From Chamaelirium japonicum (lineage: Eukaryota > Streptophyta > Magnoliopsida > Liliales > Melanthiaceae), in NCBI GenBank assembly GCA_947650365.1, contig CANTAL010000193.1, positions 186,001 to 250,000 of the forward strand: 64,000 nt of DNA. The letters are read 5' to 3'. This document shows, piece after piece, positions 4,496 to 63,694 of the stretch (within the stretch, counting starts at the first letter, position 1; every line of letters starts with the position of its first letter). The notes beneath the pieces are model-generated. The model worked only from the letters and a program-made list of their open reading frames with translations, did no database searches and was not told where the DNA came from. Made by a program: the position numbers and the translations under genes.

Positions 4496-4920
4496 GTGCA
4501 AATGAATTAGAATGGATTGTATGAATGTATTAGAATGAATCGTGCGAATGAATTAGAATGGATCGTACGAAGAAATTATAATGGATCGTACGAATGAATT
4601 AGAATGGATCGTACGAATGAATTAGAATGGATACATTCGTGCGAATGAATTAGAATGGATACATTCGTGCGAAAGAATTAGAATAGATCGTATGAATGAA
4701 TTAGAATGGATCCTATGAATGAATTAGAATGGATCGTGCGAATGAATTAGAATGGATCGTACGAATGAATTAGAATGGATCGTGCTAATGAATTAGAATT
4801 GATCGAACGAATGAATTAGCATGGATCGTGCTAATGAATTAGAATGGAACGTACGAATGAATTAGAATGGATCGTGTGAAAGAATTAGAATGGATTATAT
4901 GAATGAATTAGAATGAATTC
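4496..4920 (+). repeat. Satellite block, + sense
   Basis: Ends with the marker series GTGCTAATG, GAATTGATCGAACG, GAATTAGCATGG and GAACGTACG, then GTGTGAAAG and GGATTGTATG, which precedes the 33-bp inverted-repeat junction at 4911. The same series recurs before six other copies of that junction. Confidence 0.92.
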
Positions 4921-4943
4921 GTACGATCCATTCGAATTCATTC
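4911..4943 (+). repeat. 33-bp inverted-repeat junction (forward), copy 1
   Basis: Perfect 11-bp arms GAATGAATTCG and CGAATTCATTC around TACGATCCATT. The right arm is a point variant of the unit (CGAATT for CTAATT); the left arm is the actual plus-to-minus join. Left flank is the GATCGAACG / GAACGTACG series. Confidence 0.94.
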
Positions 4944-5950
4944 GCACGATCCATTCTAATTCATTCATACGATCCATTCTAATTCATTCGTACGATCCAT
5001 TCTAATTCCTTCGTATGATCCATTCTATTTCATTCGTACGATCCATTCTTACTCATTGGTACGATCCATTCTAATTCATTCGCACGAATGTATCCATTCT
5101 AATTCATTCGTACGAATCCATTCTAATTCATTCGTACAATTCAATCTATTTCATTCGTACGATCCATTCTTACTCATTCGTATGATCCATTCTAATTCAT
5201 TCGCACGAATGTATCCATTCTAAATCATTCGTACGATCCATTCTAATTCATTCGTACGATCCATTCTAAATCATTCGTACGATCCATTCTAGTTCATTCG
5301 CACGATCTATTCTAATTCATTCATACAATCCATTCTAATTGTTTCACACGATCCATTCTAATTCATTCATACGATCCATTCTAATTCATTCGCGCAATCC
5401 ATTCTATTTCATTCGTACGATCCATTCTTACTCATTCATACGATCCATTCTAATTCATTCGTACAATCTATTCTATTTCATTCGTACGATCCATTCTTAC
5501 TCATTCGTATGATCCATTCTAATTCATTCGTATGATCCATTCCAATTCATTCGCACGAATGTATCCATTCTAGTTCATTCGTACGATCCATTCTAATTCA
5601 TTCGCACGATCCATTCTAATCCATTTGTACGATCCATTCTAATTCATTCGTACAATCCATTCTATTTCATTTGTACGATCCATTCTTACTCATTCGTATG
5701 ATCCATTCTAATTCATTCGCACGAATGTATCCATTCTAATTCATTCATACAATCCATTCTAATTCATTCTGTACGATCCATTCTAATTCATTCGTACGAT
5801 CCATTCTAATTCATTCCCACGATCCATTCTAATTTATTCGTACGATCCATTCTAATTCATTCGTACGATCCATACTAATTCATTCGTACGATCCATTCTA
5901 ATTCATTCTAATTCATTCGTACGATCCATTCTAATTCATTCGTCCGATCC
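4921..5950 (-). repeat. Satellite block, - sense
   Basis: Starts inside the 33-bp junction. Contains several copies of the CTATTTCATTC / CTTACTCATTC variant pair and a shortened unit near 5905. Ends abruptly at about 5950, where CGATCC meets TACGAATG without a long palindrome. Confidence 0.9.
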
Positions 5951-6009
5951 TACGAATGAATTAGAATAGATCGTGTGAAAGAATTAGAATGGATTGTATG
6001 AATGAATTA

Positions 6010-6042
6010 GAATGAATTCGTACGATCCATTCGAATTCATTC
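6010..6042 (+). repeat. 33-bp junction (forward), copy 2
   Basis: Perfect arms. The plus-sense left arm is only about 70 bp long before it meets minus units, so the copy was truncated by a later rearrangement. Confidence 0.93.
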
Positions 6043-7010
6043 GCACGATCCATTTTAATTCATTCATACGATCCATTCTAATTCATTCATACAATCCATT
6101 CTAATTCTTTCACACGATCCATTCTAATTCATTCGTAGGATCCATTCTAATTCATTCGTACAATCTATTCTATTTCATTCGTACGATCCATTCTTACTCA
6201 TTTGTCTGATCCATTCTAATTCATTCGGACGAATGTATCCATTCTAATTCGTTCGTACGATCCATTCTAATTCATTCGTCCGATCCATTCTAATTTATTC
6301 GCACGAATGTATCCATTCTAATTCATTCGTACGATCCAGTCAAATTCATTCGTACGATCCATTCTATTCTAGTTCATTCGTATGATCCATTCTAATTCAT
6401 TCGTACGATCCATTCTAATTCATTCGCACGATCCATTCTAATTCATTCGTACGATCAATTCTAATTCATTAGCACGAATGTATCCATTCTAATTCATTCG
6501 TACGATCCATTCTAATTCATTCGCACGATCCATTCTAATTCATTCGTACGATCCATTCTAATTCATTCATACGATCCATTCTAATTCATTCGCACGAATG
6601 TATCCATTCTAATTCATTCATACGATCCATTCTACTTCATTCATACTATCCGTTCTAATTCACTCATACGATCTATTCTAATTCATTCATACGATCCATT
6701 CTAGTTCATTTGCACGAATATATCCATTCTAATTCATTCGTACGATCCATTCTAATTCCTTCGTACGATCCATTCTAATTCATTCGTACGATCCATTCTA
6801 TTTTATTCATATGATCCATTCTAATTAATTCGTACGATCCATTCTAATTCATTCGTATGATCCATTCTAATTCATTCGTACGATCCATTCTTACTCATTC
6901 GTATGATCCATTCTAATTCATTCATACAGTCCATTCTAATTCATTCCGTACGATCCATTCTAATTCATTCATACGATCTATTCTTTCATACAATCCATTC
7001 TAATTCTTTC
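6020..7010 (-). repeat. Satellite block, - sense
   Basis: Separated from the previous minus block by only about 70 bp of plus-sense units (5951-6019). Opens with the series CATACAATCC, CTTTCACACG, CGTAGGATCC that follows most copies of the 33-bp junction. Ends where TTTCG meets GTGCGAATG at about 7010. Confidence 0.9.
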
Positions 7011-8862
7011 GTGCGAATGAATTAGAATGGATACCTTTGTGCATATGAATTAGAATGGATCGTACGAATGAATTAGAATGGATCATATTAATAAATTAGA
7101 ATGGATACCTTTGTGCATATGAATTAGAATGGATCGTACGAATGAATTAGAATGGATCATATTAATGAATTAGAATGGATCGTACGAATGAATTAGAACG
7201 GATACATTCGTGCGAATGAATTAGAATGGATCGTGCGAATAAATTAGACAGGATCGTGCGAATTAATTAGAATGGATCGTACGAATTAATTAGAATGGAT
7301 ACATTCGTGCGAATGAATTAGAATGGATTGTATGAATGAATTAGAATGGATCGTACGAATGAATTAGAATGGATCATACGAATTAATTAGAATGGATCAT
7401 ACGAATGAATTAGAATGGATCGTACGAATGAATTAGAATGGATCGTACGAATGAATTAGAATGGATCGTGCGAATGAATTAGAAAGGATCGTTCGAATGA
7501 ATTAGAATGGATACATTTGTGTGAATGAATTAGAATGGATCGTACGAATGAATTAGAATGGATCGTATGAATGAATTAGAATGGATCCTACGAATGAATT
7601 AGAATGGATCGTGTGAATGAATTAGAATGGATACATTTGTGCGAATGAATTAGAATGGATCGTACGAATGAATTATAATTGATCGTATGAATGAATTAGA
7701 ATGGATCGTACGAATGAATTAGAATGGATCGTGCGAATGAATTAGAATGGATCGTACGAATGAATTAGAATGGATCGTACGAATGAACTAGAATGGATAC
7801 ATTCGTGCGAATGAATTAGAATGGATCGTACGAATGAATTAGAATGGATCGTACGAATGAATTAGAATGGATCTTACGAATGAATTAGAATGGATCGTAC
7901 GAATGAATTAGAATGGATACATTTGTGCGAATGAATTAGAATGGATCGTACGAATGAATTAGAATGGATCGTATGAATGAATTAGAATGGATCGTACGAA
8001 TGAATTAGAATGGATCGTGCGAATGAATTAGAATAGATCGTACGAATGAATTAGAATGGATCGTGTGAAAGAATTAGAATGGATCATACGAATGAATTAG
8101 AATGGATCGTGCGAATGAATTAGAATGGATCGTATGAATGAATTAGAATAGATTTTGTGAATGAATTAGAACTGATCGTACGAATGAATTAGAATGGATC
8201 GTACGAATGAATTAGAATGGATACATTTGTGCGAATGAATTAGAATGGATCGTACGAATGAATTAGAATGGATCGTATGAATGAATTAGAATGGATACAT
8301 TCGTGCGAATGAATTAGAATGGATCGTGCGAATGAATTAGAATGGATACATTCGTGCGAATGAATTAGAATGGATTGTATGAATGAATTAGAATGGATCG
8401 TACGAATGAATTAGAATGGATCATACGAATTAATTAGAATGGATCATACGAATGAATTAGAATGGATCATACGAATGAATTAGAATGGATCGTACGAATG
8501 AACTAGAATGGATCGTACGAATGAAATAGAATGGATTCGTACGAATGAATTAGAATGGATACATTCGTGCGAATGAATTAGAATGGATACATTCGTGCGA
8601 AAGAATTAGAATAGATCGTATGAATGAATTAGAATGGATCCTATGAATGGATTAGAATGGATCGTGCGAATGAATTAGAATGGATCGTGCGAATGAATTA
8701 GAATGGATCGTGCTAATGAATTAGAATTGATCGAACGGATGAATTAGAATGCATCGTACGAAAGAATTAGAATGGATATATTCGTGCGAATGAATTAGAA
8801 TGGATCGTATGAATGAATTAGAATGGATCGTCCGAATGAATTAGAATGGATCATACGAATGC
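7011..8862 (+). repeat. Satellite block, + sense (1.9 kb)
   Basis: Rich in 28-bp units. Holds two copies of the marker GATACCTTTGTGCATATG (7030 and 7104), 74 bp apart, a local duplication. The GTGCTAATG, GATCGAACGG marker lies at about 8710. Ends at a switch in GAATGCTTTCTAATTCC near 8862. Confidence 0.92.
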
Positions 8863-9045
8863 TTTCTAATTCCTTAGTACGATCCATTCTATTTCATTCG
8901 TACGATCCATTCTATTTCATTCGTATGATCCATTCTAATTCCTTCATACGATCCATTCTAATTCCTTCGTATCCATTCTAATTCACTCATACGATCCATT
9001 TTAATCCATTCGTATGATCCATTCTAATTCATTCGCATGAATGTA
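8863..9045 (-). repeat. Short satellite block, - sense
   Basis: About eight units, several with CTAATTCCTTC, and one shortened unit (CCTTCGTATCC near 8965). A near copy of this block lies at about 10515-10690, with a similar left switch. Confidence 0.88.
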
Positions 9046-10087
9046 CATTCGTGCGAATGAATTAGAATGGATCGTACGAATGTATTAGAATGGATCGTAC
9101 AAATGAATTAGAATGGATTGTACGAATGAATTAGAATGGATCGTACGAATGAATTAGAATCGATACATTCATTCGAATGAATTAGAATGGATCGGACGAA
9201 TGAATTAGAATGGATCGTACGAATGAATTAGAATGTATCGTACGAATGGATTAGAATGGATCTTACGAATGGATTAGAATGGATACCTTTGTGTATATGA
9301 ATTAGAATGGATCGTATGAAAGAATGGATTAGAATGGATTAGAATGGATCGTACGAATGAATTAGAATAGATCATAGGAATGAATTAGAATGGATCGTGA
9401 AAATGAATTAGAATGGATACATTCGTGCGAATAAATTAGAATGGGTTGTATGAATGAATTAGAATGGATATGAAGGAATTAAAATGGATCGTACGAAGGA
9501 ATTAGAATGGATCATACGAATGAAATAGAATGGATCGTACGAAGGAATTAGAATGGATCGTACGAAGGAATTAGAATGGATCGTACGAAGGAATTAGAAT
9601 GGATCGTACGAATGAATTAGAATGGATATATTCGTGCAAATGAATTAGAATGGATCGTATGAATGAATTAGAATTGATCGTATGAGTGAATTAGAATGGA
9701 TCGTACGAATGAATTAGAATGGATCGTATGAATGAATTAGAATGGATCGTGCGAAAGAATTAGAATACATTGTATAAATGAATTAGAATGGATCGTATGA
9801 ATGAATTAGAATGGATCGTGCGAATGAATTCGAATGGATCGCATGATCCATTCGAATAGAATGGATCGTATGAATGAATTAGAATGGATCGGGCGAATGA
9901 ATTAGAATGGATCGTATGAATGAATTAGAATGGATCGTATAAATGAATTAGAATGGATCGTGCGAATGAATTAGAATGGATTGTACGAATGAATTAGAAT
10001 GGATCGTACGAATGAATTAGAATGGATCGTACGAATGAATTAGAATGGATCATACGAATGAGTAAGAATGGATCATATGAAAGGATT
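9046..10087 (+). repeat. Satellite block, + sense, with an internal hairpin
   Basis: Diverged plus-sense units with several shortened ones (about 9325-9350 and 9470). A 30-bp inverted repeat at 9828-9857 briefly reverses sense. Ends at about 10087, where AAGGATTCGTACG leads into minus-sense units. Confidence 0.9.
9828..9857. repeat. 30-bp inverted repeat (13-bp arms)
   Basis: Perfect arms ATTCGAATGGATC and GATCCATTCGAAT around the spacer GCAT. It reverses the satellite for less than one unit and then returns to plus sense. The ATTCGAAT variant links it to the 33-bp junction family (GAATTCG arms). Confidence 0.93.
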
Positions 10088-10186
10088 CGTACGATCCATT
10101 CTAATTCATTCGTACGATCCATTCTACTTCATTCTAATTCATTCGTACGATCCATTCTACGATCCATTCTAATTCATTCGTTTATT

Positions 10187-10231
10187 CCATTCTAATTCAT
10201 TAGCACGATCCATGCTAATGAATTAGAATGG
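10187..10231. repeat. 45-bp hairpin, 19-bp arms, spacer CGATCCA
   Basis: Left arm 10187-10205 and right arm 10213-10231 are perfect complements, beginning CCATTCTAATTC and ending GAATTAGAATGG. The 7-bp spacer CGATCCA is the reverse complement of the spacer in the sister hairpins at 23407 and 26557. It marks the minus-to-plus switch that ends the short, scrambled minus block 10088-10209. Confidence 0.93.
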
Positions 10232-10514
10232 ATCGTACGAATGAATTAGAATGGATCGTGTGAAAGAATTAGAATGTATTGTATGAATGAATTAGAATGG
10301 ATCGTATGAATGGATCGTACGAATGGAATGGATATATTCGTGCGAATGAATTAGAATGGATCGTACGAATGAATTAGAATGGATCATACGAATGCGTAAG
10401 AATGGATCGTACGAATGAATTAGAATGGATCGTACGAATGAATTATAATGGATCGTAAGAATAAATTAGAATGGATACATTCTTCCGAATGAATTAGAAT
10501 GGATCATACGAATG
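10210..10514 (+). repeat. Short satellite block, + sense
   Basis: About 13 units including GTGTGAAAG and a GAATGGAATGGATAT shortened unit near 10325. Ends at the palindrome GAATGCATTC (10510-10519). Confidence 0.9.
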
Positions 10515-11251
10515 CATTCTAATTCCTTCGTACGATCCATTCTAATTCCTTCGTACGATCCATTCTATTTCATTCGTATGATCCATTCTAATTCCTTCGT
10601 ACGATCCATTCTAATTCCTTCATATCCATTCTAATTCACTCATACGATCCATTCTAATCCATTCGTACGATCCATTCTAATTCATTCGGATGAATGTAAC
10701 CATTCTAATTCATTCATTTGATCCATTCTAATTCATTCATACGATCCATTCTAATTCATTCGTACGATCCATTGTAATTCATTCATACAATCCATTTAGA
10801 TTCATTCGCACAAATGTATCCATTCAAATTCATTCGTACGATCCAGTCTAATTCATTCGTACGATCCATTCTAACTCATTCGCAAGAATATATCCATTCT
10901 AATTCTTTCGTATGATGCATTCTAATTCATTCATACGATCCATTCAAATTTATTCGTACGATCCATTCTAATTCATTCGTACGATCCATTCTAATTCATT
11001 CGCACGAATGTATCCATTCTAATTCATTTGTACAATCCATTCTATTTCATTCGTACGATCCATTCTTACTCATTCGTATGATCCATTCTAATTCATTCGT
11101 ACGATCCATTCTAATTCATTCGTACGATCCATTCTAATTCATTCGCACGATCCATTCTAATTCATTCATACGATCCATTCTAATTCATTCATACGATCCA
11201 TTCTAATTCATTCGCCCGATCCATTCTAATTCATTCATACGATCCATTCTA
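10515..11251 (-). repeat. Satellite block, - sense
   Basis: Begins with CCTTCGTACG units like those at 8863. The right end is CCATTCTA, T, TAGAATGG (11244-11260), a 17-bp palindrome with one central base. It is followed by less than one plus-sense unit and an immediate return to minus sense at GGATCATGCGATCC (11259-11272). Confidence 0.9.
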
Positions 11252-11265
11252 TTAGAATGGATCAT

Positions 11266-12376
11266 GCGATCCATTCGAATTCATTCGCACGATCCATTCT
11301 AATTCATTCATACGATCCATTCTAATTCATTCATACAATGCATTCTAATTCTTTCACACGATCCATTCTAATTCGTTCGTACGATCCATTCTAATTCATT
11401 AATATGATCCATTCTAATTCATTCGTACGATCCATTCTAATTCATATGCACAAAGGTATCCATTCTAATCCATTCGTAGGATCCATTCTAATCCATTCGT
11501 ACGATCCATTTTAATTCATTCGTACGATCCATTCTAATTCATTCGCTCGAATGTATCCATTCTAATCCATTCGTACGATCCATTCTAATCCATTCGTACG
11601 ATCCATTCTAATTCATTCGCACGAATGTAACCATTCAAATTCATTCATTTGATCCATTCTAATTCATTCGTACGATCCATTCTAATTCATTCGCACGATC
11701 CATTCTAATTCATTCATACGATCCATTCTAATTCATTCGTACGATCCATTCTAATTCATTCGTACGATCCATTCTAATTCCTTCGTACGATCCATTCTAA
11801 TTCATTCGTACGATCCATTCTAATTCATTCATACCATCAATTCTAATTCTTTCACACGATCCATTCTAATTCATTCGTACGATCCATTCTAATTCATTCA
11901 TAGGATCCATTCTAATTCCTTCATGCAATCCATTCTAATTCATTCGCACGAATGTATCCATTCTAATTCATTCGTACGATCAGTTCTAATTCATTCACAA
12001 AATCTATTCTAATTCATTCATACGATCCATTCTAATTCATTCACACGAATGTATCCATTCTAATTCATTCATACGATCCATTCTAATTCATTCGTACGAT
12101 CCATTCTAATTCACTCATACGATCCAATCTAATACATTCATACAATCCATTCTAATTCATTTGCACGAATATATCCCTTCTAATTCATTCGTACGATCCA
12201 TTCTAATTCCTTCGTACGATCCATTCTAATTCATTCGTACAATCTATTCTAATTCATTCGTACGATCCATTCTAATTCATTCGTACGATCCATTCTAATT
12301 CCTTCGTACGATCCATTCTAATTCATTCGTACGATCCATTCTAATTCATTCGTACAATCTATTCTAATTCATTCGT
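11266..12376 (-). repeat. Satellite block, - sense
   Basis: Opens with CCATTCGAATTCATTCGCACG, the right half of the 33-bp junction, so it looks like a damaged copy of that junction. It carries the marker CATATGCACAAAGGTATCC near 11445 and CACAAAATCT at 11995. Ends at CATTCGTACGAATG (12370-12383). Confidence 0.9.
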
Positions 12377-13820
12377 ACGAATGGATACATTCGTGTGAAT
12401 GAATTAGAATGGATCGTACGAATGAGTAAGAATGGATCGTACGAATGAAATAGAATGGATTGCACGAATGAATTAGAATGGATCGTACGAATGAATTAGA
12501 ATGGATCGTGTGAAAGAATTAGAATGGATTGTATGAATGAATTAGAATTGATCGTACGAAAGAATTAGAATGGATCGTACGAATGAATTAGAATGGATCG
12601 TACGAATGAATTAGAATGAATCGTACGAATGAATTAGAATAGATCGTATGAATGAATTAGAATGGATCGTACGAAGGAATTAGAATGTATCTTACGAATG
12701 AATTAGAATGGATCGTATGAATGAATTAGAATGGATACATTCGTGTGAATGAATTAGAATGGATCGTATGAATGAATTAGAATAGATTTTGTGAATGAAT
12801 TAGAACTGATCGTACGAATAAATTAGAATGGATACATTCGTGCGAATGAATTAGAATGGATTGTATAAATGAATTAGAATGAATCCTATGAATGAATTAG
12901 AATGGATCGTATGAATGAATTAGAATGGATACATTCATGCGAATGAATTAGAATTGATCGTACGAATGAATTAGAATGGATCGTGCGAATGAATTAGAAT
13001 GGATCGTACGAATGAATTAGAATAGATACATTCGTGCGAATGAATTAGAATGGATACATTCGTGCGAAAGAATTAGAATAGATCGTATGAATGAATTAGA
13101 ATGGATCCTATGAATGAATTAGAATGGATCGTACGAATGAATTAGAATGGATCGTACGAATGAATTAGAATGGATCGTGCTAATGAATTAGAATTGATCG
13201 AACGAATGAATTAGCATGAATCGTGCTAATGAATTAGAATAGATCGTACAAATGAATTAGAATGGATCAAATGAATGAATTAGAATGGTTACATTCATGC
13301 GAATGAATTACAATGGATTGTACGAATGGATTAGAATGGATCGTACGAATGGATTAGAATGGATACATTCGTGCGAATGAATTAGAATGGATCGTACGAA
13401 TGAATTAGAATGGATCGTACGAATGAATTAGAATGGATCTTACGAATGAATTAGAATGGATCGTACGAATGAATTAGAATGGATCGTACGAATGAATTAG
13501 AATTGATACATTCGTGCGAATGAATTAGAATGGATCGGACGAATGAATTAGAATGGATCGTACGAATGAATTAGAATGGATCGTACGAATGAATTAGAAT
13601 GGATCGTACAAATAAATTAGAATGGATACATTCGTCCGAATGAATTAGAATGGATCATACGAATGAGTAAGAATGGATCGTACGAATGAAATAGAATAGA
13701 TTGTACGAATGAATTAGAATGGATCCTACGAATGAATTAGAATGGATTGTATGAATGAATTAGAATGGATCGTATGAATGAATTAGAATGGATCGTGCGA
13801 ATGAATTCGAATGGATCATA
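12377..13820 (+). repeat. Satellite block, + sense
   Basis: Begins GGATACATTCGTGTGAATG right after the 14-bp palindrome, an arrangement repeated at 15325, 39976 and 59819. Contains the GTGCTAATG / GATCGAACG marker near 13185 and GAATGGTTACATTC at 13283. Ends in an inverted copy of the 33-bp junction (13799-13831). Confidence 0.92.
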
Positions 13821-13831
13821 CGAATTCATTC
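13799..13831 (-). repeat. 33-bp junction, inverted copy 1
   Basis: Same arms, but spacer AATGGATCATA, the complement of the forward spacer type. Flanks are also the reverse complement of the forward copies, with two additional 23-mers on the left instead of the right. Confidence 0.93.
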
Positions 13832-15331
13832 TAATTCATTCATACAATCCATTCTAATTCTTTCACACGATCCATTCTAATTCATTCGTACGTACCATTC
13901 TAATTCATTAGCACGATCCATGCTAATTCATTCGTTCGATCAATTCTAATTCATTAGCACGATCCATTCTAATTCATTCGTACGATCCATTCTTATTCAT
14001 TCGCACGATCCATTCTAATTCATTCATAGGATCCATTCTAATTCATTCATACGATCTATTCTAATTCTTTCGCACGAATGTATCCATTCTAATTCATTCG
14101 CACGAATGTATCCATTCTAATCCATTCGTACGATCCATTCTAATCCATTCGTACGATCCATTCTAATTCATTCGCATGAATGTAACCATTCTAATTCATT
14201 CATTTGATCCATTCTAATTTATTCGTACAATCCATTCTAATTCATTCGTCCAATCCATTCTAATTCATTTGCACGAATGTATCCATTCTAAACCATTCAT
14301 ACAATCTATTCTAATTTATTCATACGATCCATTCTAATTCATTCGTACGATCCATTCTAATTCATTCGTACGATCCATTCTAATTCATTCGTACGATCTA
14401 TTCTAATTCATTCGTACGATCCATTCTAATTCATTCGCACGAATGTATCCATTCTAGTTCATTCGTACGATCCATTCTAATTCTTTCACACGATCCATTC
14501 TAATTCATTCGTACGATCCATTCTAATTCATTCGCACGATCCATTCTAATTCATTCGTATGATCCATTCTAATTCATTCATACTTTCCATTCTAATTCAT
14601 TCGTACGATCCATTCTAATTCATTCGCACGATCCATTCTAATTCATTCGTACGATCCATTCTAATTCTTTCATACGATCCATTCTAATTCCTTCGTACGA
14701 TCATTCTAATTCATTCGCACGATCCATTCTAATTCATTCGTATGATCCATTCTAATTCATTCATACTTTCTATTCTAATTCATTCGTATGATCCATTCTA
14801 ATTCATTCGCACAAATGTATCCATTCTAATTCATTCGTACGATCCATTCTAATTCATTCGCACGATCCATTCTAATTCATTCGTACGATCCATTCTAATT
14901 CATTCGCACGATCTGTTCTTATTCATTCGCACAATCCATTCTAATTCATTCGCACGAATGTATCCATTCTAATTCATTCGTACGATCCATTCTAATTCAT
15001 TCGTACGATCCATTCTAATTCATTCGTATGATCCATTCTAATTAATTCGTATGATCCATTCTAATTCATTCGTACGATCCATTCTAATTCATTCATACAA
15101 TCCATTCTAATTCATTCGTACGATCCATTCTAATTCACTCATACGATCCATTCTAATACATTCATACGATCCATTCTAATTCATTTGCACGAATATATCC
15201 ATTCTAATTCATTCGTACGATCCATTCTAATTCATTTGTATGATCTATTCTAATTCCTTCGTAGGATCCATTCTAATTCATTCGTACGATCCATTCTAAT
15301 TCATTCATACAATCTATTCTAATTCATTCGT
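13821..15331 (-). repeat. Satellite block, - sense
   Basis: Starts CATACAATCC, CTTTCACACG, then the complement of the GTGCTAATG / GATCGAACG marker (ATTAGCACG, CGTTCGATC; 13895-13960). This is the mirror image of what precedes the 4911-type junctions. Ends at CATTCGTACGAATG (15325-15338). Confidence 0.92.
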
Positions 15332-16540: not shown

Positions 16541-16882
16541 CACGATCCATTCTAATTCATTCGCACGAATGTATCTATTCTAATTCATTCGTACGATCCA
16601 TTCTAATTTATTCGTACGATCCATTCTAATTCATTCGTAAGATCCATTCTAATTCATTCGTATGATCCATTCTAATTCATTCATACAATCCATTCTAATT
16701 CTTTCACACGATCCATTCTAATTCTTTTACACGATCCATTCTAATTCATTCGTACGATCCATTCTAATTCATTCGTACGATCCATTCTAATTCATTCGTC
16801 CGATCCATTCTAATTCATTCGCACGAATGTATCCATTCTAATTCATTCGTATGATCCATTCTAATTCATTCGTATGATCCAT
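16541..16882 (-). repeat. Short satellite block, - sense
   Basis: About 14 units. Its sequence is repeated in the first 340 bp of the block starting at 17462. It breaks off at GATCCATTTGTGCG, where minus-sense GATCCATT joins the plus-sense 28-mer string CATTTGTGCG. Confidence 0.9.
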
Positions 16883-51571: not shown

Positions 51572-51903
51572 ACGAATGTATCCATTCTAATTCATTCGTA
51601 CGATCCATTCTAATTCATTCGTACGATCCATTCTATTTCATTCGTATGATCCATTCTAATTAATTCGTATGATCCATTCTAATTCATTCGTACGATCCAT
51701 TCTAATTCATTCATACAATCCATTCTAATTCATTCGTACGATCCATTCTAATTCACTCATACGATCTATTCTAATACATTCATACGATCCATTCTAATTC
51801 ATTTGCACGAATATATCCATTCTAATTCATTGGTACGATCCATTCTAATTCCTTTGTACGATCTATTCTAATTCATTCGTACGATCCATTCTAATTCATT
51901 CGT
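51572..51903 (-). repeat. Short satellite block, - sense
   Basis: About 14 units, similar to 46640-46944. Ends at the centre of the 40-bp palindrome. Confidence 0.9.
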
Positions 51904-51923
51904 ACGAATGAATTAGAATGGAT
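51884..51923. repeat. 40-bp perfect palindrome without spacer
   Basis: Centred on CGTACG (51901-51906); all 20 bases on the left pair with those on the right. A minus-to-plus switch. Confidence 0.95.
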
Positions 51924-53018
51924 ACATTCGTGCGAATGAATTAGAATGGATACATTCATGCGAAAGAATTAGAATAGATCGTATGAATGAATTAGAATGG
52001 ATCCTATGAATGAATTAGAATGGATTGTGCGAATGAATTAGAATGGATCGTACGAATGAATTAGAATGGATCGTGCTAATGAATTAGAATTGATCGAACG
52101 AATGAATTAGCATGGATCGTGCTAATGAATTAGAATGGATCGTACGAATGAATTAGAATGGATCGTGTGAAAGAATTAGAATGGATTGTATGAATGAATT
52201 AGAATGGATCGTACGAATGAATTAGAATGGATCGTACGAAGGAATTAGAATGGATTGTACGAATGAATTAGAATGGATCGTACGAATGAATTAGAATAGA
52301 TCGTACGAATGAATTAGAATGGATCGTACGAATGAATTAGAATGGATTGTACGAAAGAATTAGAATGGATTGTACGAATGAATTAGAATGGATCGTATGA
52401 ATGAATTAGAATGGATATATTCGTGTGCATGAATTAGAATGGATCGTATGAATGAATTAGAATAGATTTTGTGAATGAATTAGAACTGATCGTACGAATT
52501 AATTAGAATGGATACATTCGTGCGAATGAATTAGAATGGATTATATGAATGAATTAGAATGGATCCTATGAATGAATTAGAATGGATCGTACGAATGAAT
52601 TAGAATCGATACATTCGTGCGAATGAATTAGAATTGATCGTACGAATGAATTAGAATAGATCGTGCGAATGAATTAGAATGGATCATACGAATGAATTAG
52701 AATGGATATATTCGTGCGAATGAATTAGAATGGATACATTCGTACGAAAGAATTAGAATAGATCGTATTAATGAATTAGAATGGATCCTATGAATGAATT
52801 AGAATGGATCGTGCGAATGAATTAGAATGGATCGTACGAATGAATTAGAATGGATCGTGCTAATGAATTAGAATGGATCGTGCTAATGAATTAGAATTGA
52901 TCGAACGAATGAATTAGCATGGATCGTGCTAACGAATTAGAATGGAATGTAAGAATGAATTAGAATGGATCGTGTGAAAGAATTAGAATGGATTGTATGA
53001 ATGAATTAGAATGAATTC
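51904..53018 (+). repeat. Satellite block, + sense
   Basis: Carries two GATCGAACG marker series (about 52075-52130 and 52850-52930), a local duplication, then the 33-bp junction at 53009. Confidence 0.91.
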
Positions 53019-53041
53019 GTACAATCCATTCGAATTCATTC
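53009..53041 (+). repeat. 33-bp junction (forward), copy 12
   Basis: Arms perfect, spacer TACAATCCATT; left flank has two GATCGAACG series; downstream parallels copy 9. Confidence 0.93.
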
Positions 53042-54274
53042 GCACGATCCATTCTAATTCATTCAGACGATCCATTCTAATTCATTCCTACAATCCATTC
53101 TAATTCTTTCACACGATCCATTCTAAATCATTCGTAGGATCCATTCTAATTCATTCATACAATCTATTCTATTTCATTCGTACGATCCATTCTTACTCAT
53201 TCGTATGATCCATTCTAACTCATTCGGACGAATGTATCCATTCTAATTTATTCGTACGATCCATTCTAATTCATTCGTACGATCCATTCTAATTCATTCG
53301 CTCGAATGTATCCATTCTAATCCATTCATACGATCCATTCTAATCCATTCGTACGATCCATTCTAATTTATTCGCATGAATGTAACCATTCTATTTCATT
53401 CATTTGATCCATTCTAATTCATTCGTACGATCCATTCTAATTCATTAGCACGATCCATGCTAATTCATTCGTTCGATCAATTGTAATTCATTAGCACGAT
53501 CCATTCTAATCCATTCGTACGATCCATTCTAATTCATTCGCACGATCCATTCTAATTCATTCATAGGATCCATACTAATTCATTCATACGATCTATTCTA
53601 ATTCTTTCGCACGAATGTATCCATTCTAATTCATTCGCACGAATGTATCCATTCTAATTCATTCGTACGATCCATTCTAATTCATTCGCACGATCCATTC
53701 TAATTCATTCGTACGATCAATTCTATTTCATTCGCACGAAGGTATCCATTCTAATTCATTCGTATGATCCATTCTAATTCATTCATTGGATCCATTCTAA
53801 TTCATTCATATAATCCATTCTAATTCATTCGCACGAATGTATCCATTCTAATTCATTCATACGATCAGTTCTAATTCATTCACAAAATCTATTCTAATTC
53901 ATTCATACGATCCATTCTAATTCATTCACACGAATATATCCATTCTAATTCATTCATACGATCCATTCTAATTCATTCGTACGATCCATTCTAATTCCTT
54001 TGTACGATCCATTCTAATTCATTCGTACGATCTATTCTAATTCATTCGTACGATCCATTCTAATTCATTCGTACGATCCATTCTAATTCCTTCGTACGAT
54101 CCATTCTAATTCATTCGTAAGATCCATTCTAATTCATTCATACAATCCATCCTAATTCATTCGTACGATCCATTCTAATTCATTCGTGCAATCCATTCTA
54201 TTTCATTCGTACGATCCATTCTTACTCATTCGTACGATCCATTCTAATTCATTCACACGAATATATCCATTCGT
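53019..54274 (-). repeat. Satellite block, - sense (1.26 kb)
   Basis: Matches 38740 onward in marker order and spacing up to about 54060, then differs. Ends at CATTCGTACGAATG (54268-54281). Confidence 0.91.
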
Positions 54275-55710
54275 ACGAATGAATTAGAATAGATTGTACG
54301 AATGTATTAGAATAGATCATACGAATGAATTAGAATGGATCGTACGAAGGAATTAGAATAGATCGTACGAATGAATTAGAATGGATCGTACGAATGAATT
54401 AGAATAGATCGTACGAATGAATTAGAATGGATCGTACGAAGGAATTAGAATGGATCGTACGAATGAATTAGAATGGATATATTCGTGCAAATGAATTAGA
54501 TTGGATCGTATGAATGTATTAGAATGGGTCGTATGAGTGAATTAGAATGGATCGTACGAATGAATTAGAATGGATCGTATGAATGAATTAGAATGGATAC
54601 ATTTGTGTGAATGAATTAGAATAGATCGTATGAATGAATTAGAATAGATTTTGTGAAGGAATTAGAACTGATCGTACGAATGAATTAGAATGGATACATT
54701 CGTGCGAATGAATTAGAACGGATTGTATGAATGAATTAGAATGGATCCTATGAATGAATTAGAATGGATCGTACGAATGAATTGGAATGGATACATTCGT
54801 GCGAATGAATTAGAATTGCTCGTATGAATGAATTAGAATGGATCGTGCGAATGAATCAGAATGGATCGTACGAATGAATTAGAATGGATACATTCGTGCG
54901 AATGAATTAGAATGGATACATTCATGCGAATGAATTAGAATAGATCGTATGAATTAATTAGAATGGATCCTATGAATGAATTAGAATGGATCGTGCGAAT
55001 GAATTAGAATGGATCGTATGAATGAATTAGAATGGATCGTGCTAATGAATTAGAATTGATCGAACGAATGAATTAGCATGGATCGTGCTAATGAATTAGA
55101 ATGGATCGTACGAATGAATTAGAATGGATCAAATGAATGAATTAGAATGGTTACATTCATGCGAATGAATTAGAATGGATCGTACGAATGGATTAGAATG
55201 GATCGTACGAATGGATTAGAATGGATACATTCGAGCGAATGAATTAGAATGGATCGTACGAATGAATTAGAATGGATCGTACGAATAAATTAAAATGGAT
55301 ACATTCGTCCGAATGAATTAGAATGGATCATACGAATGAGTAAGAATGGATCGTACGAATGAAATAGAATAGATTGTACGAATGAATTAGAATGGATCGT
55401 ACGAATGGATTAGAATGGATACATTCGAGCGAATGAACTAGAATGGATTGTTCGAATGAATTAGAATGGATCGTACGAATAAATTAGAATGGATACATTC
55501 GTCCGAATGAATTAGAATGGATCATACGAATGAGTAAGAATGGATCGTACGAATGAAATAGAATAGATTGTACGAATGAATTAGAATGGATCCTACGAAT
55601 GAATTAGAATGGATCGTGTGAAAGAATTAGAATGGATTGTATGAATGAATTAGAATGGATCGTATGAATGAATTAGAATGGATCGTGCGAATGAATTCGA
55701 ATGGATCGTA
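54275..55710 (+). repeat. Satellite block, + sense
   Basis: Contains the GATCGAACG series near 55060 and a partial 282-bp block at 55145. A short segment (GAATAAATTAAAATGG to GATTGTACG) is repeated within 200 bp (about 55285 and 55465). Ends in the inverted 33-bp junction (55689-55721). Confidence 0.91.
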
Positions 55711-55721
55711 CGAATTCATTC
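55689..55721 (-). repeat. 33-bp junction, inverted copy 5
   Basis: Perfect arms and spacer AATGGATCGTA. Left flank carries GAATGAGTAAG, GGATCCTACG and GTGTGAAAG; right flank carries the complement of the GATCGAACG / GAACGTACG series. Confidence 0.93.
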
Positions 55722-56532
55722 TAATTCATTCATACAATCCATTCTAATTCTTTCACATGATCCATTCTAATTCATTCGTACGTTCCATTCTAATTCATTA
55801 GCACGATCCATGCTAATTCATTCGTTCGATCAATTCTAATTCATTAGCACGATCCATTCTAATTCATTCGTACGATCCATTCTAATTCATTCGCACGATC
55901 TATTCTAATTCATTCATAGGATCCATTCTAATTCATTCATACGATCTATTCTAATTCTTTCGCACGAATGTATCCATTCTAATTCATTCGCACGAATGCA
56001 TCCATTCTAATTCATTCGTACGATCCATTCTAATTCATTCGTATGATCCTTTCTAATTCATTCGCACGATCTGTTCTTATTCATTCGCACAATCCATTCT
56101 AATTCATTCGCACGAATGTATCCATTCTAATTCATTCGTAGGATCCATTCGAATCCATTCGTACGATCCATTCTAATTCATTCGTACGATCCGTTCTAAT
56201 TCATTCGTACGATCCATTCTAATTCATTCGCACGAATGTATCCATTCTAATTCATTCGCATGAATGTATCCATTCTAATTCATTCGTATGATCCATTCTA
56301 ATTCATTCGTACGATCCATTCTAATTCATTCGTACGATCCATTCTAATTCATTCGTACGATCCATTCTAATTCATTCATACGATCTATTCTAATTCATTC
56401 ATACAATCCATTCTAATTGATTCGTACGATCCATTCTAATTCATTCGCATAATCCATTCTATTTCATTCGTACGATCCATTCTTACTTATTCGTATGATC
56501 CATTCTAATTCATTCGCACGAATGTATCCATA
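55711..56532 (-). repeat. Satellite block, - sense
   Basis: Mirror-type series after the inverted junction, then ordinary minus units. Ends at GAATGTATCCATAATTGATC, a diverged version of the switch at 60725. Confidence 0.9.
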
Positions 56533-56701
56533 ATTGATCATACGAATGAGTAAGAATGGATCGTACGAATGAAATAGAATGGATTGTGCGAATGAATTAG
56601 AATGGACCGTACGAATGAATTTGACGTACGAATGAATTAGAATGGATACATTCGTGCGAATAAATTAGAATGGATCATACGAATGAGTAAGAATGGATCG
56701 T
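56533..56701 (+). repeat. Short satellite block, + sense
   Basis: About seven units, including a truncated one (GAATTTGACGTACG near 56620). Both ends are non-palindromic joins. Confidence 0.88.
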
Positions 56702-59700
56702 CATTCTAATTCATTCGTATGATCCATTCTAATTCATTTGTATCCATTCTATTTCATTCACACGATCCATTCTAATTCATTCGCGTAATCTATTCTAATT
56801 CATTCGTACGATCCATTCTAATTCATTCGTACGATCCATTCTAATTCATTCATACAATCCATTCTAATTTATTCGCACGAATGTATCCATTCTAATTCAT
56901 TCGTACGATCCATTCTCATTCATTCGCACAATCTATTCTAATTCATTCATACGATCCATTCTAATTCATTCGCACGAATGTATCCATTCTAATTCATTCA
57001 TACGATCCATTCTACTTCATTCGTACTATCCGTTCTAATTCACTCATACGATCTATTCTAATTCATTCATATGATCCATTCTAATTCATTTGCACAAATA
57101 TATCCATTCTAATTCATTCGTACGATCCATTCTAATTCCTTCGTACGATCCATTCTAATTCCTTCGTACGATCCATTCTAATTCCTTCGTACGATCCATT
57201 CTATTTCATTCGTATGATCCATTCTAATTCCTTCGTACGATCCATTCTAATTCCTTCGTATCCATTCTAATTCACTCATACGATCCATTCTAATTTATTT
57301 GTACGATCCATTCTAATTCATTCATACAATCCATTCTAATTCATTCGCACGATTGTATCCATTCTAATACATTCATACGATCCATTCTAATCCATTCGTA
57401 CGATCCATTCTAATTCATTCGCATGAATGTAACCATTCTAATTCATTCATTTGATCCATTCTAATTCATTCGTACGATCCATTCTAATTCATCCGTCCGA
57501 TCCATTCTAATTCATTCGCACGAATGTATCCATTCTAATTCATTCGTACGATCCATTCTAATTCATTCGTAAGATCCATTCTAATTCATTCATACGATCC
57601 ATTCTAATTCATTCGTACGATCCATTCTAATTCATTCGCACGAATGTATCCATTCTAGTTCATTCGTACGATCCATTCTAGTTCATTCGTACGATCCATT
57701 CTAATTCATTCGTACGATCCATTCTAATTCATTCGTATGATCCATTCTAATTAATTCATATGATCCATTCTAATTCATTCGTACGATCCATTCTAATTCA
57801 TTCATACAATCCATTCTAATTCATTCACACGAATGTATCCATTCTAATTAATTCGTACGATCCATTCTAATTCATTCGTATGATCCATTCTTATTCATTC
57901 GCACGATCCAGTCTAATGGATTCGCACGATCCATTCTAATTCATTCGCACGAATGTATCCATTCTAATTCATTCGTACGATCCATTCTAATTCATTAATA
58001 TGATCCATTCAAATTCATTCGTACGATCCATTCTAATTCATATGCACAAAGGTATCCATTCTAATCCATTCGTAGGATCCATTCTAATCCATTTGTACGA
58101 TCCATTCTAATTCATTCGTCCGATCCATTCTAATTCATTCGCACGAATATATCCATTCTAATTCATTCGTACGATCCATTCTAATTCATTCGTACGATCC
58201 ATTCTAATTCATTCGTACGATCCATTCTAATTCATTCGCACGATCCATTCTAATTCATTCGCACGATCTGTTCTTATTCATTCGCACAATCCATTCTAAT
58301 TTATTCGCACGAATGTATCCATTCTAATTCATTCGTACGATCCATTCTAATTCATTCGTATGATCCATTCTAATTCATTCGTATGATCCATTCTAATTAA
58401 TTTGTATGATCCATTCTAATTCATTCGTACGATCCATTCTAATTCATTCCTACAATCCATTCTAATTCATTCGCACGAATGTATCCATTCTAATTAATTC
58501 GTACGATCCATTCTAATTCATTCGTATGATCTATTCTTATTCATTCGCACGATCCAGTCTAATTGATTCACACGATCCATTCTAATTCATTCGCACGAAT
58601 GTATCCATTCTAATTCATTCGTATGATCCATTCTAATTCATTCGTATAATATATTCTATTTCATTCGTACGATCCATTCTTACTCATTTGTATGATCCAT
58701 TCTAATTCATTCGGACGAATGTATCCATTCTAATTTGTTCGTACGATCCATTCTAATTCGTTCGTAGGATCCATTCTAGTTCATTCGTACGATCCATTCT
58801 AATTCATTCATACGATCCATTCTAATTCATTCGTACGATCCATTCTAATTCATTCGCACAAATATATCCATTCTAATTCATTTGTATGATCCATTCTAAT
58901 TCATTCATACGATCTATTCTAATTCATTCGTAAGATCCATTCTAATTCATTCATACGATCCATTCTAATTCATTCGTACGATCCATTCTAATTCATTCGC
59001 ACGAATGTATCCATTCTAGTTCATTCGTACGATCCATTCTAATTCATTCATACGATCCATTCTAATTCATTCGCACGATCCATTCTAATTCATTCGTACG
59101 ATCCATTCTAATTCATTCATACGATCCATTCTAATTCATTCGTACGATCCATTCTAATTCATTCGCACAAATGTATCCATTCTAATTCATTCATACGATC
59201 CATTCTAATTCATTCGCACGATCCATTCTAATTCATTCGTACGATCCATTCTAATTCATTCGTACGATCCATTCTAATTCATTCATACAATCCATTCTAA
59301 TTCATTCGCACAAATGTATCCATTCTAATTAATTCGTACGATCCATTCTAATTCATTCGTATGATCTATTCTTATTCATTCGCACGATCCAGTCTAATTG
59401 ATTCACACGATCGATTCTAATTAATTCATAGGATCCATTCTAATTCATTCGTACAATCCATTCTAATTCTTTCACATGATCCATTCTAATTCATTCGTAC
59501 GATCCATTCTAATTCATTAATACAATTCATTCTAATTCATTCGTACGATCCATTCGAATTCACTCAAACGATCCATTCTAATACATTCATACGATCCATT
59601 CTAATTCATTTGCACGAATATATCCATTCTAATTCATTCGTACGATCCATTCTAATTCCTTCGTACGATCCATTCTAATTCATTCGTACGATCTATTCTA

Positions 59701-59825
59701 ATTCATTCGTACGAACCATTCTAATTCATTCGTACGATCCATTCTAATTCCTTCATACGATCCATTCTAATTCATTCGTACGATCCATTCTAATTCATTC
59801 GTACAATCTATTCTAATTCATTCGT
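56702..59825 (-). repeat. Longest single-sense block, - sense (3.1 kb)
   Basis: About 130 units. Internal duplications are visible: CATTCTTATTCATTC then CAGTCTAATTGATTC at about 58530 and 59375, and a diverged version near 57890. CATATGCACAAAGGTATCC lies near 58038. Ends at CATTCGTACGAATG (59819-59832), followed by GGATACATTCGTGTGAATG. Confidence 0.92.
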
Positions 59826-60235
59826 ACGAATGGATACATTCGTGTGAATGAATTAGAATGGATCGTACGAATGAGTAAGAATGGATCGTACGAATGAAAT
59901 AGAATGGATTGCACTAATGAATTAGAATGGATCGTACGAATGAATTAGAATGGATCGTGTGAAAGAATTAGAATGGATTGTATGAATGAATTAGAATGGA
60001 TCGTACGAAGGAATTAGAATGGATTCGTACGAATGAATTAGAATGGATCATACGAATGAATTAGAATAGATCGTACGAATGAATTAGAATGGATCGTACG
60101 AATGAATTAGAATGGATCGTACGAATGAATTAGAATGGATCGTGCGAATGAATTAGAATGTATCGTACGAATGAAAAAGAATGGATCATGCTAATGAATT
60201 AGAATAGATCGAACGAATGAATTAGCATGGATCGT
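59826..60235 (+). repeat. Satellite block, + sense, ending at foreign DNA
   Basis: About 17 units. The last is GAATTAGCATGGATCGTG, part of the GATCGAACG series, and it breaks off at the 222-bp insert instead of continuing GCTAATG. Confidence 0.91.
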
Positions 60236-60457
60236 GGCTGTACGGTCCGATGGCAAGCCGGTTAAGCAGGAATCGAGGAAAATGCATCCTGAAGTGTTGA
60301 GCTCTTTCGGTTAAAAAAGGCAGGAAGCGAATGCTGGCTCGACCAACCCTTGATCCTAACCCCCTTAAGGTATGGTATATTCACAAAGGAAATGGAGTTG
60401 GGGCATCCGCAGGAGTAGAAGAAGATGATCTAGCACATCGGCTGGGGGGGAATGTGC
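60236..60457. other. Unrecognised non-satellite insert (about 222 bp)
   Basis: The only long stretch besides the CACTA element that is not satellite. GC is about 51% against 35% for the satellite, and it has runs such as GGGGGGG (60444-60450). The satellite reads plus on its left and minus on its right, so it sits exactly at a strand switch. I see no terminal inverted repeats and no target duplication, so it is not an evident transposon. One plus frame, from ATGG at 60250, is open to the end of the insert except for one stop after 16 codons; the translation resembles no family I know. A captured organelle or nuclear fragment used as filler in break repair is possible, but nothing identifies its source. 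Confidence 0.85.
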
Positions 60458-60731
60458 ATTCGTACGATCCATTCTAATTCATTCCTAAGTTCCATTCTAA
60501 TTCATTCGTACGATCCATTCTAATTCATTCGTACGATCCATTCTAATTCATTCATACGATCTATTCTAATTCATTCATACAATCCATTCTAATTCTTTCA
60601 CACGATCCATTCTAATTCATTCGTACGATCCATTCTAATTCATTCGCACAACCCATTCTATTTCATTCGTACGATCCATTCTTACTCATTCGTACGATCC
60701 ATTCTAATTCATTGGCACGAATGTATCCATA
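60458..60731 (-). repeat. Short satellite block, - sense
   Basis: Ordinary minus units directly after the foreign insert. Ends at ATCCAT, A, ATGGAT (60725-60737). Confidence 0.9.
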
Positions 60732-61117
60732 ATGGATCATACGAATGAGTAAGAATGGATCGTACGAATGAAATAGAATGGATTGTGCGAATGAATAAGA
60801 ATGGACCGTACGAATGAATTAGAATGGATACATTCGTGCGAATGAATTAGAATGGATCGGACAAATGAATTAGAAAGGATCGTACGAATGAATTAGAATG
60901 GATCATATGAATGAATTAAAATGGATCGTACGAATAAATTAGAATGGATACATTCGTCCGAATGAATTAGAATGGATCATACGAATGAGTAAGAATGGAT
61001 CATACGAATGAAATAGAATAGATTGTACGAATGAAATAGAATGGATCCTATGAATGAATTAGAATAGATCGTGTGAAAAAATTAGAATGGATTGTATGAA
61101 TGAATTAGAATGAATTC
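60732..61117 (+). repeat. Satellite block, + sense; left arm of a long palindrome
   Basis: From about 60920 the units (CGTCCGAATG, GAATGAGTAAG, GAATGAAATAG, GATTGTACG, GGATCCTATG, GTGTGAAA, GGATTGTATG) are the mirror image of those after 61140. Confidence 0.91.
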
Positions 61118-61140
61118 GTACGATCCATTCGAATTCATTC
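61108..61140 (+). repeat. 33-bp junction (forward), copy 13
   Basis: Arms perfect; centre of the best-preserved extended palindrome (about 60920-61370). Confidence 0.94.
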
Positions 61141-62136
61141 GCACGATCCATTCTAATTCATTCATACGATCCATTCTAATTCATTCATACAATCCATTCT
61201 AATTCTTTCACACGATCCATTCTAATTCATTCGTAGGATCCATTCTAATTCATTCGTACAATCTATTCTATTTCATTCGTACGATCCATTCTAATTCATT
61301 CGGACGAATGTATCCATTCTAATTTATTCGTACGATCCATTCTAATTCATTCGTACGATCCATTCTAATTCATTCGTACGATCTATTCTAATTCATTCGT
61401 CCGATCCATTCTAATTCATTCGCACGAATGTATCCATTCTAATGCATTCGTACGATCCATTCTAATTAATTCGTACGATCCATTCTAATTCATTCGTAAG
61501 ATCCATTCTAATTCATTCGTACGATCCATTCTAATTCATTCGTCCGATCCATTCTAATTCATTCGCACGAATGTATCCATTCTAATTCATTCGTACGATC
61601 CATTCTAATTCATTCGTACGATCCATTCTAATTCATTCGTAAGATCCATTCTAATTCATTCGTACGATCCATTCTAATTCATTCGTACGATCCATTCTAA
61701 TTCATTCGCACGAATGTATCCATTCTAGTTCATTCGTACGATCCATTCTAATTCATTCGTACGATCCATTCTAATTCATTCCTACGATCCACTCTAATTT
61801 ATTCATAAGATCCATTCTAATTCATTTGTACGATCTATTCTAATTCATTCGCACGAATGTAACCATTCTAATTCATTCATACGATTCATTCTAATTCATT
61901 CGTATGAGCTATTCTAATTCATTCGTACGATCCATTCTAATTCATTCGTACGATCCATTGTAATTCATTCATAAAATCCATTTAGATTCATTCGCACAAA
62001 TGTATCCATTCAAATTCATTCGTACGATCCAGTCTAATTCATTCATACGATCCATTCTAATTCATTCGCACGAATATATCCATTCTAATTCTTTCGTACG
62101 ATGCATTCTAATTCATTCGTACGATTATCCATTCGT
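61118..62136 (-). repeat. Satellite block, - sense; right arm of a long palindrome
   Basis: Opens with CATACAATCC, CTTTCACACG, CGTAGGATCC, CTATTTCATTC and CGGACGAATG, mirroring the left arm. Later units match the region around 1745-2000 (GAGCTATTC, CATTTAGATTCATTC, CCAGTCTAATTC). Confidence 0.91.
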
Positions 62137-62932
62137 GCGAATGAATTAGAATGGATCGTGCATGAATGTATCCATTCTAATTCATTCGTACGATCCATTC
62201 TAATTCATTAATATGATCCATTCTAATTCATTCGTACGATCCATTCTAATTCATATGCACAAAGGTATCCATTCTAATCCATTCGTAGGATCCATTCTAA
62301 TCCATTCGTACGATCCATTCTAATTCATTCGTACGATCCATTCTAATTCATTCGCTCGAATGTATCCATTCTAATCCATTCGTAAGATCCATTCTAATCC
62401 ATTCGTACGATCCATTCTAATTCATTCGCATGAATGCAACCATTCTAATTCATTCATTTGATCTATTCTAATTCATTCGTACGATCCATTCTAATTCATT
62501 CGTCCGATCCATTCTAATTCATTCGCACGAATGTATCCATTCTAATTCATTCGTACGATCCATTCTAATTCATTAATATGATCCATTCTAATTCATTCGT
62601 ACGATCCATTCTAATTAATTCATACGATCCACTCTAATTCATTCGTAAGATCCATTCTAATTCATTCGTACGATCCATTCTAATTCATTCGTACGATCCA
62701 TTCTAATTCATTCGCACGAATGTATCCATTCTAGTTCATTCGTACGATCTATTCTAATTCATTCGTACGATCCATTCTAATTCATTCGCACGAATGTATC
62801 CATTCTAATTCATTCGTACGATCCATTCTAATTCATTAATATGATCCATTCTAATTCATTCGTACGATCCATTCAAATTCATATGCACAAAGGTATCCAT
62901 TCTAATTCATTCGTACGATCCATTCTAATTCA
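62137..62932 (-). repeat. Satellite block, - sense, after a one-unit flip
   Basis: One plus-sense unit at about 62137-62158, centred on CATTCGTGCGAATG, is followed by minus units from 62159. The marker CATATGCACAAAGGTATCC occurs near 62262 and 62881. Ends at CTAATTCAG then GATCGTACG (62929-62942), the join also seen at 21600 and 44190. Confidence 0.9.
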
Positions 62933-63671
62933 GGATCGTACGAATGAATTAGAATGGATACATTCGTGCGAATGAATTAGAATTGATCGTACGAATGAAT
63001 TAGAATGGATCGTGCGAATGAGTTAGAATGGATCGTACGAATGAATTAGAATGGATCGTACGAATGAACTAGAATGGATATATTCGTGCGAATGAATTAG
63101 AATGGATCATACGAATGAATTAGAATGGATGGTACGAATGAATTAGAATGGATCTTACGAATGAATTAGAATGGATCGTACGAATGAATTAGAATGGATC
63201 GTACGAATGAATTAGAATGGATAAATTCGTGCGAATGAATTAGAATGGATCGAACGAATGAATTAGAATGGATCGTACGAATGAATTAGAATGTATCGTA
63301 CGAATAAATTAGAATGGATCGTACGATTAAATTAGAATGGATACATTCGTCCGAATGAATTAGAATGGATCATACGAATGAGTCAGAATGGATCGTACGA
63401 ATGAAATAGAATAGATTGTATGAATGAATTAGAATGGATCCTACGAATGAATTAGAATGGATCATGTGAAAGAATTAGAATGGATTGTATGAATGAATTA
63501 GAATGGATCGTACGAATGAATTATAATGGATCGTGCTAATGAATTAGAATTGATCAAACGAATGAATTAGCATGGATCGTGCTAATGAATTAGAATGGAA
63601 CGTACGAATGAATTAGAATGGATCATGTGAAAGAATTAGAATGGATTGTATGAATGAATTAGAATGAATTC
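62933..63671 (+). repeat. Satellite block, + sense
   Basis: Begins like 21601 and 44191. Ends with the GTGCTAATG / GATCAAACG series and the 33-bp junction at 63662. Confidence 0.91.
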
Positions 63672-63694
63672 GTACGATCCATTCGAATTCATTC
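63662..63694 (+). repeat. 33-bp junction (forward), copy 14
   Basis: Arms perfect; left flank GATCAAACG then GAACGTACG; right flank shortened. Confidence 0.93.

Follow-up and report, generated by a model that had tools for sequence, protein, structure and literature searches.

How can a single inversion junction come to stand many times, and in both orientations, within one satellite array? The question is raised by 64,000 nucleotides of Chamaelirium japonicum DNA (contig CANTAL010000193.1, positions 186,001 to 250,000), hereafter called the window, which is nearly all satellite and contains two non-satellite stretches. The forward unit of the array is the 23-bp GAATGAATTAGAATGGATCGTAC, and a 33-bp inverted repeat occupies many of the places where oppositely oriented runs of this unit meet. 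Our analysis indicates that this junction probably arose by one head-to-head join, was spread by block duplication, and had its polarity turned on several occasions by crossover between inverted runs.

The 33-bp junction and its two orientations

The direction of each run was taken from a two-state model of unit orientation, and a switch was called convergent when a forward run is followed by a reverse run. The model divided the 64 kb into 78 runs, the longest of 3.1 kb, with a change of polarity about every 830 letters and 54.8% of the bases in forward orientation. The resulting 77 switches are an upper figure, as six runs of just 12 to 23 bp may be small local inversions or model noise.

1..64000, no single strand: array of the 23-bp satellite; by the two-state model it has up to 77 strand switches, of which 39 are convergent and 38 divergent

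We searched the window for the pattern GAATGAATTCG-N11-CGAATTCATTC with up to 2 mismatches and obtained 21 matches, compared with none in 100 shuffles. Fourteen of them carry a spacer of the TACGATCCATT type (orientation A) and five the complementary type (orientation B), the same counts that an earlier note on this DNA had given; the remaining two (10487 and 46448) belong to a different junction, ending GAATGCATTC. When the search was loosened to 3 mismatches, 70 matches appeared (0.03 expected), and the 49 gained, read off the list, were ordinary in-register units or the neighboring register of known sites. Both arms are perfect in 15 of the 19 junction sites, the others having one mismatch (28584 and 42802) or two (45878 and 50793), and four spacers deviate by one base (32472, 34605, and 53009 in orientation A and 13799 in orientation B). 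All 19 sites are convergent switches, so the A or B class is unreadable from run direction and was read from the asymmetric spacer and flanks. The sites, named below by their first position, are as follows.

4911..4943, plus strand: junction A, with pattern and flank marker
6010..6042, plus strand: junction A, with a second strand switch (5938) about 60 bp to the left, common to 45878
13799..13831, minus strand: junction B, spacer variant
19431..19463, plus strand: junction A, with pattern and flank marker
24202..24234, plus strand: junction A, within a direct duplication with 27352
27352..27384, plus strand: junction A, with pattern and flank marker; direct duplication partner of 24202
28584..28616, plus strand: junction A, one arm mismatch
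32472..32504, plus strand: junction A, spacer variant
34605..34637, plus strand: junction A, spacer variant
38730..38762, plus strand: junction A, inverted pair, facing the B site 41072
41072..41104, minus strand: junction B; 40002-41321 is an inverted match of 38513-39841 (95.6%, 1330 bp)
42802..42834, plus strand: junction A, one arm mismatch
45878..45910, minus strand: junction B, two arm mismatches; carries the second strand switch of 6010 in reverse
49012..49044, plus strand: junction A, with pattern and flank marker
50793..50825, minus strand: junction B, two arm mismatches; 50728-51022 is an inverted match of 4714-5008 (98.0%, 295 bp)
53009..53041, plus strand: junction A, spacer variant
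55689..55721, minus strand: junction B; 55402-56109 is an inverted match of 19043-19750 (96.2%, 708 bp)
61108..61140, plus strand: junction A, with pattern and flank marker
63662..63694, plus strand: junction A, with pattern and flank marker

The flanks turn with the spacer

A 42-bp marker adjoins the core on the left in all 14 A sites (0 to 2 mismatches) and on the right in all five B sites (0 to 1 mismatch); the 42 bp adjoining on the opposite side differ from it at 23 to 27 positions. The polarity of the marker agreed with that of the spacer in 19/19 sites. Flipping of the 11-bp spacer alone, as in a site-specific invertible segment, was seen at none of the 19, since flank polarity always follows the spacer. 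Over the first 100 bp, the mean identity between A and B sites was 0.902 on the left and 0.922 on the right when the B sites were reversed, compared with 0.738 and 0.729 when they were not and with 0.818 and 0.840 for phase-matched random units. Near the core, the flanks of the five sites are thus the reverse complement of those of the fourteen, as the earlier note had stated, and the outcome named there as its refutation, two classes with unrelated flanks, did not appear. The same note had two extra units changing sides with the flanks. At 16 of the 19 sites the marker is indeed repeated opposite, shifted outwards to +31 with up to 4 substitutions; 4911 and 63662 have a match at +8 alone, and 50793 has neither.

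Out to 500 bp, the A-B means (0.768 and 0.834) were near those of random units (0.789 and 0.809), so on average the likeness of the flanks does not reach far. The flank common to all 19 sites extends about 30 to 60 bp per side and is shortest on the left side of 32472 and on the right side of 63662; these per-site extents are noisy, and some long values of low identity were left unused. Individual A-B pairs share more. Among the 18 best matches for each B site, inverted matches joined 41072 to 38730 (1330 bp, 95.6%), 55689 to 19431 (708 bp, 96.2%), 13799 to 19431 (538 bp, 94.8%), 45878 to 24202 (522 bp, 95.0%) and to 27352 (378 bp, 96.8%), and 50793 to 4911 (295 bp, 98.0%). The neighborhoods of the junction are therefore a common core with a mosaic of later neighbors. 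The matched inverted stretches vary in length and ends, so they are not bounded by a fixed pair of sites.

The B sites do not form a clade

We built trees from four alignments, three of them containing the 19 sites with about 60, 300, or 500 bp per side and the fourth an 11-site subset, with the B sites re-oriented. A single clade of B sites was rejected by the approximately unbiased (AU) test in all four (P = 0.0035 at about 60 bp, 3.3e-12 at 300 bp, 1.0e-5 at 500 bp, and 6.0e-6 in the subset). The orientation label needs 5 changes on each of the three 19-site trees, the maximum with five B sites, and 4 on the subset tree; it was unclustered, 500 of 500 shuffles giving as low a number. The two classes intermix in the trees, as had been predicted. 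The best single case is the pair formed by 6010 (A) and 45878 (B), which have in common an exact 31-mer across the second strand switch; the window contains this word once per strand, at these two places. Aligned over the 140 bp on the left, the two sites match at 125 columns, mismatch at 5, and have gaps in 10, and both the 300-bp and the 500-bp tree group them with full support.

That B is no clade would be explained either by several inversions or by one inversion followed by exchange with A copies. Several flips of junction copies are likely rather than proven, as exchange of flanks could give the same intermixing. The proposal that an inversion-bearing segment was amplified and repeatedly inverted as a block is supported, within limits: A and B copies do intermix, no single fixed block accounts for them, and that inversion was repeated is what we infer.

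A probable single origin for the 19 sites

The unit variant at the junction is a rare A-to-C change, GAATGAATTC, which creates the word GAATTC. The window contains 39 copies of GAATTC, 35 of them inside the 19 sites; at three sites (42802, 45878, and 50793) a single arm has retained it. The ordinary words are much more frequent, with 921 copies of GAATGAATTA and 746 of TAATTCATTC. The rare variant points to one origin for the 19 sites. The earlier note had argued from it that independent origins were unlikely, and the flank marker, also common to all 19, agrees with that argument.

Three further places carry parts of the junction.

38388..38398, plus strand: unjoined relative, in which GAATGAATTCG leads on into further forward units; it has the right-flank markers of the junction
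9822..9832, plus strand: second such unjoined relative, followed by a small local rearrangement
11260..11286 (approximate bounds), plus strand: truncated twentieth copy, the right half of the junction kept and the left replaced; an inverted copy of the 9822 arrangement (90/91 bases)

The left flank of 38388 matched the 19 right flanks with mean identities of 93% and 92% in the first two 60-bp windows, compared with 77.6% and 77.2% for random units (95th percentile, 91.7%). This unit may have survived from before the join was made, or it may have arisen later. The same 42-bp marker is found in both arms of the junction (at +31 in the right arm, 16/19 sites) and elsewhere in 19 of 1426 units at ≤1 mismatch, which suggests an origin as a fold-back of a single locus. 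A wider comparison of the arms gave no support to this idea: 90-bp arm-to-arm identity was not above that of mismatched pairs, an imperfect null in that it itself contains founder sites, that is, copies of this junction.

Polarity across the array

To place the founder junction among the other switches, we grouped junctions by spanning alignments at ≥93%, a strict method that misses weak links and left 30 of the 77 switches single, including 28584 and 35780. The other 47 fell into 10 recurrent families, of which the founder family is the largest with 18 members (13 A and 5 B, 28584 being missed). Within it, 82 of 82 links were concordant in orientation, with no conflict. Two other groupings were set aside: local alignment merged unrelated near-palindromic junctions, and 30 bp per side merged the founder with others, with unreliable orientation.

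Four of the 10 families occur in both orientations, namely the founder family and three others of 6, 3, and 2 members, again with no conflicting orientation link; except for the founder, this count is soft, as near-palindromic families (e.g., 585, 1426, and 32342) are hard to orient. The founder junction is thus not the sole one found both ways, which limits what the earlier note can claim for it. The family of 6 is represented by the following junction.

39978..39978, no strand assigned: divergent junction F, family with 12373, 15328, 39978, and 59822 one way and 43058 and 54271 the other way

Repeats within the window showed no preferred polarity. Of the exact repeats of at least 60 bp, 3236 were direct and 3247 inverted. 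The longest of all is the inverted pair at 2973 and 8164 (305 bp), and direct ones reach 254 bp. When the window was cut into 160 tiles of 400 bp, 154 had a partner and 6 had none; the best relative was direct for 82, inverted for 70, and tied for 2, so that the inverted share (70/152) did not depart from random polarity (P = 0.42). Tiles with a best relative at ≥97% comprised 28 direct and 16 inverted, and the rest split 54 to 54. We tentatively suggest that the array is near orientation equilibrium, with inverted exchange between neighboring runs at least as frequent as duplication, the polarity of blocks randomized, and the asymmetric junctions tagging each inversion.

Direct duplication of whole blocks is also present: 22294-24515 and 25439-27665 are 95.7% identical with a period of about 3.1 kb. 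Inside this duplication lies a local inversion of 15 to 18 bp that recurs at 33778 and 48134.

Proposed mechanism and its alternatives

In the scheme that we favor, a single illegitimate head-to-head join between oppositely oriented 23-bp satellite runs, one of whose units carried GAATGAATTC, would have created the asymmetric junction. Its copies would have spread as passengers of duplicated and moved array blocks of roughly 0.3 to 3 kb. Crossover between inverted homologous runs would then overturn the intervening DNA with no new scar, converting some copies from A to B on several occasions. Such scarless flips are possible in an array where homologous runs of opposite orientation follow one another at intervals of 0.8 kb on average. 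The single origin, the several flips, and the crossover as the flipping step are what we infer from the sequence.

Several observations weigh against this scheme. Strongly supported branches force just 1, 2, and 4 changes of orientation on the 19-site trees and 2 on the subset tree, and the core-only tree is without any strongly supported branch. The trees of 300 to 500 bp blend several histories, because the flank common to all 19 sites is so short. The tree program flagged an odd letter composition of 6010 and 45878 in the 300-bp and 500-bp trees, because both enter reversed units beside the core. The likeness of 38388 to the right flanks is no longer distinct in the third and fourth 60-bp windows (81% and 62%), the lean of the closest tile pairs to direct orientation was not significant (Fisher P = 0.15), and no crossover point was mapped. 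Finally, gene conversion between copies of the two orientations would leave a picture like that of repeated inversion.

The alternative that survives best is that inverted copies were made directly, by replication strand-switching or by circular DNA re-inserted either way, and not by inversion in place. We regard it as a plausible competitor, though not the favored one. It fits the observations that very similar pairs are often inverted already (16 of the 44 tiles with a best relative at ≥97%), that best relatives of all identities lie >5 kb away for 113 of 152 tiles, and that 38513-39841 and 40002-41321 are neighbors and inverted copies of each other (95.6%). The data do not separate this route from duplication followed by inversion, and no circle or insertion boundary was identified.

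It is less likely, though a serious rival as well, that one inversion gave a first B copy, which was amplified, and that gene conversion or unequal exchange in inverted alignment later mixed the flanks of A and B. The flanks do look mosaic, many pairs ceasing to match at about 56 to 59, 78, 148, 197, and 318 to 331 bp on the left (noisy extents), and the core-only tree lacks strongly supported branches. The core-only alignment nevertheless rejects a B clade (P = 0.0035), and the exchange would need cross-orientation conversion tracts of up to 1330 bp at 95.6%.

Selection on the 33-bp repeat as a functional element, a protein-binding loop or cruciform as suggested for Tribolium inversion sites, is improbable. 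The repeat is the commonest junction in the array and folds into an 11-bp stem with -8.8 kcal/mol as single-stranded DNA, a value reached by 1 of 200 shuffles; two other junctions folded for comparison also form good hairpins, as expected of an inverted array. The core has 10 mismatches in 627 positions (1.6%), compared with 3/532 in the 28 bp to its left (0.6%), 18/950 in the 50 bp to its left (1.9%), and 11/760 in the 40 bp to its right (1.4%). With no excess conservation over the flanks, functional conservation of the core was rejected and we do not regard the 33-bp site as selected; in our scheme it is carried along as a passenger and has no part in recombination as a site.

An assembly or fold-back read artifact is slightly less credible still. 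Assembly of satellites is difficult, and some of the inverted pairs are nearly identical (99.5% for one 400-bp tile, besides the exact 305-bp inverted repeat). Fold-back artifacts yield near-perfect palindromes, whereas the listed inverted A-B matches across B sites differ by 2 to 8%, and the longest exact direct repeat is similar in size to the inverted one.

Independent formation of the junction at a microhomology hotspot, which units rich in short palindromic words (AATT, GTAC, and GATC) might favor by making head-to-head joins easy, is highly improbable given that all 19 sites have in common a GAATTC change rare in the window and an asymmetric flank marker.

Comparison with known systems

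Excerpts of a 2026 paper describe satellites of Tribolium madens as palindrome-like arrays in which strand changes occur at few, sequence-specific recurrent inversion sites that are 98.2 to 98.9% similar within a type (PMC13081366). Ectopic recombination is suggested there as the origin of the TmSat2 inversion, and satellite macro-dyads are stated to be documented exclusively in Tribolium (PMC13081366). Set beside these excerpts, our array likewise has runs of one satellite in opposite orientations, with up to 77 switches in 64 kb, and recurrent inversion sites, 47 of the 77 switches falling into the 10 families. It differs from the Tribolium arrays, which have subunits of about 110 bp and inverted subarrays of several kb, mostly two per array, in its 23-bp unit and its 78 runs with a switch about every 0.8 kb. 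It differs also in having one inversion site in both polarities with intermixed ancestry, a situation that may be unreported in the excerpted Tribolium work and the satellite-inversion literature. As far as those excerpts go, this array would be another macro-dyad case beyond Tribolium, and a far denser one.

Ordinary higher-order repeats, such as those of human alpha satellite, are head-to-tail, multi-unit blocks duplicated whole. The duplication of 22294-24515 as 25439-27665 is of this kind; unlike in such repeats, related blocks here are inverted about as often as direct. In site-specific inversion systems, such as phase-variable segments, one segment occurs in both orientations, as it does here, but the inverted stretches in the window range from 295 to 1330 bp and have differing ends.

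Inversions in satellites usually leave little trace because the repeat looks unchanged. Where a junction is asymmetric and carries a rare variant, the polarity of each copy can be read, and inversions can be counted and their sizes taken. If inversion is as frequent as duplication, models of satellites based on head-to-tail unequal exchange alone are incomplete.

Non-satellite inserts and the satellite unit

The two non-satellite stretches are as follows.

16933..17092: 160-bp insert bounded by 13-bp terminal inverted repeats (CACTACACCAAAA...TTTTGGTGTAGTG) and flanked by a 3-bp repeat, CGT
60237..60456: about 220 bp of unrelated DNA at a convergent strand switch

The first presumably resembles a plant CACTA-type miniature element. 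An exact-match literature search with the CACTA-like end sequence gave no match, and all 7 Rfam matches at or beside the insert were below gathering scores and were taken as chance. For the second, there was no plasmid match, no Rfam match inside the insert, and no Pfam match for four of the nine short open reading frames listed there; all 19 Rfam matches around it fall in the satellite to its right, below gathering scores, and were likewise taken as chance.

Exact searches with satellite words gave no match in a bacterial and archaeal contig collection (the 23-mer unit and a 39-mer), in a viral contig collection (the 23-mer unit and a 28-mer), or, for the unit sequences, in the paper texts searched. 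The positions of the unit that vary most lie among its last six bases. The commonest changes are C to T, A to G, and G to A, and both CG words are affected, a pattern that may reflect decay through CpG methylation.

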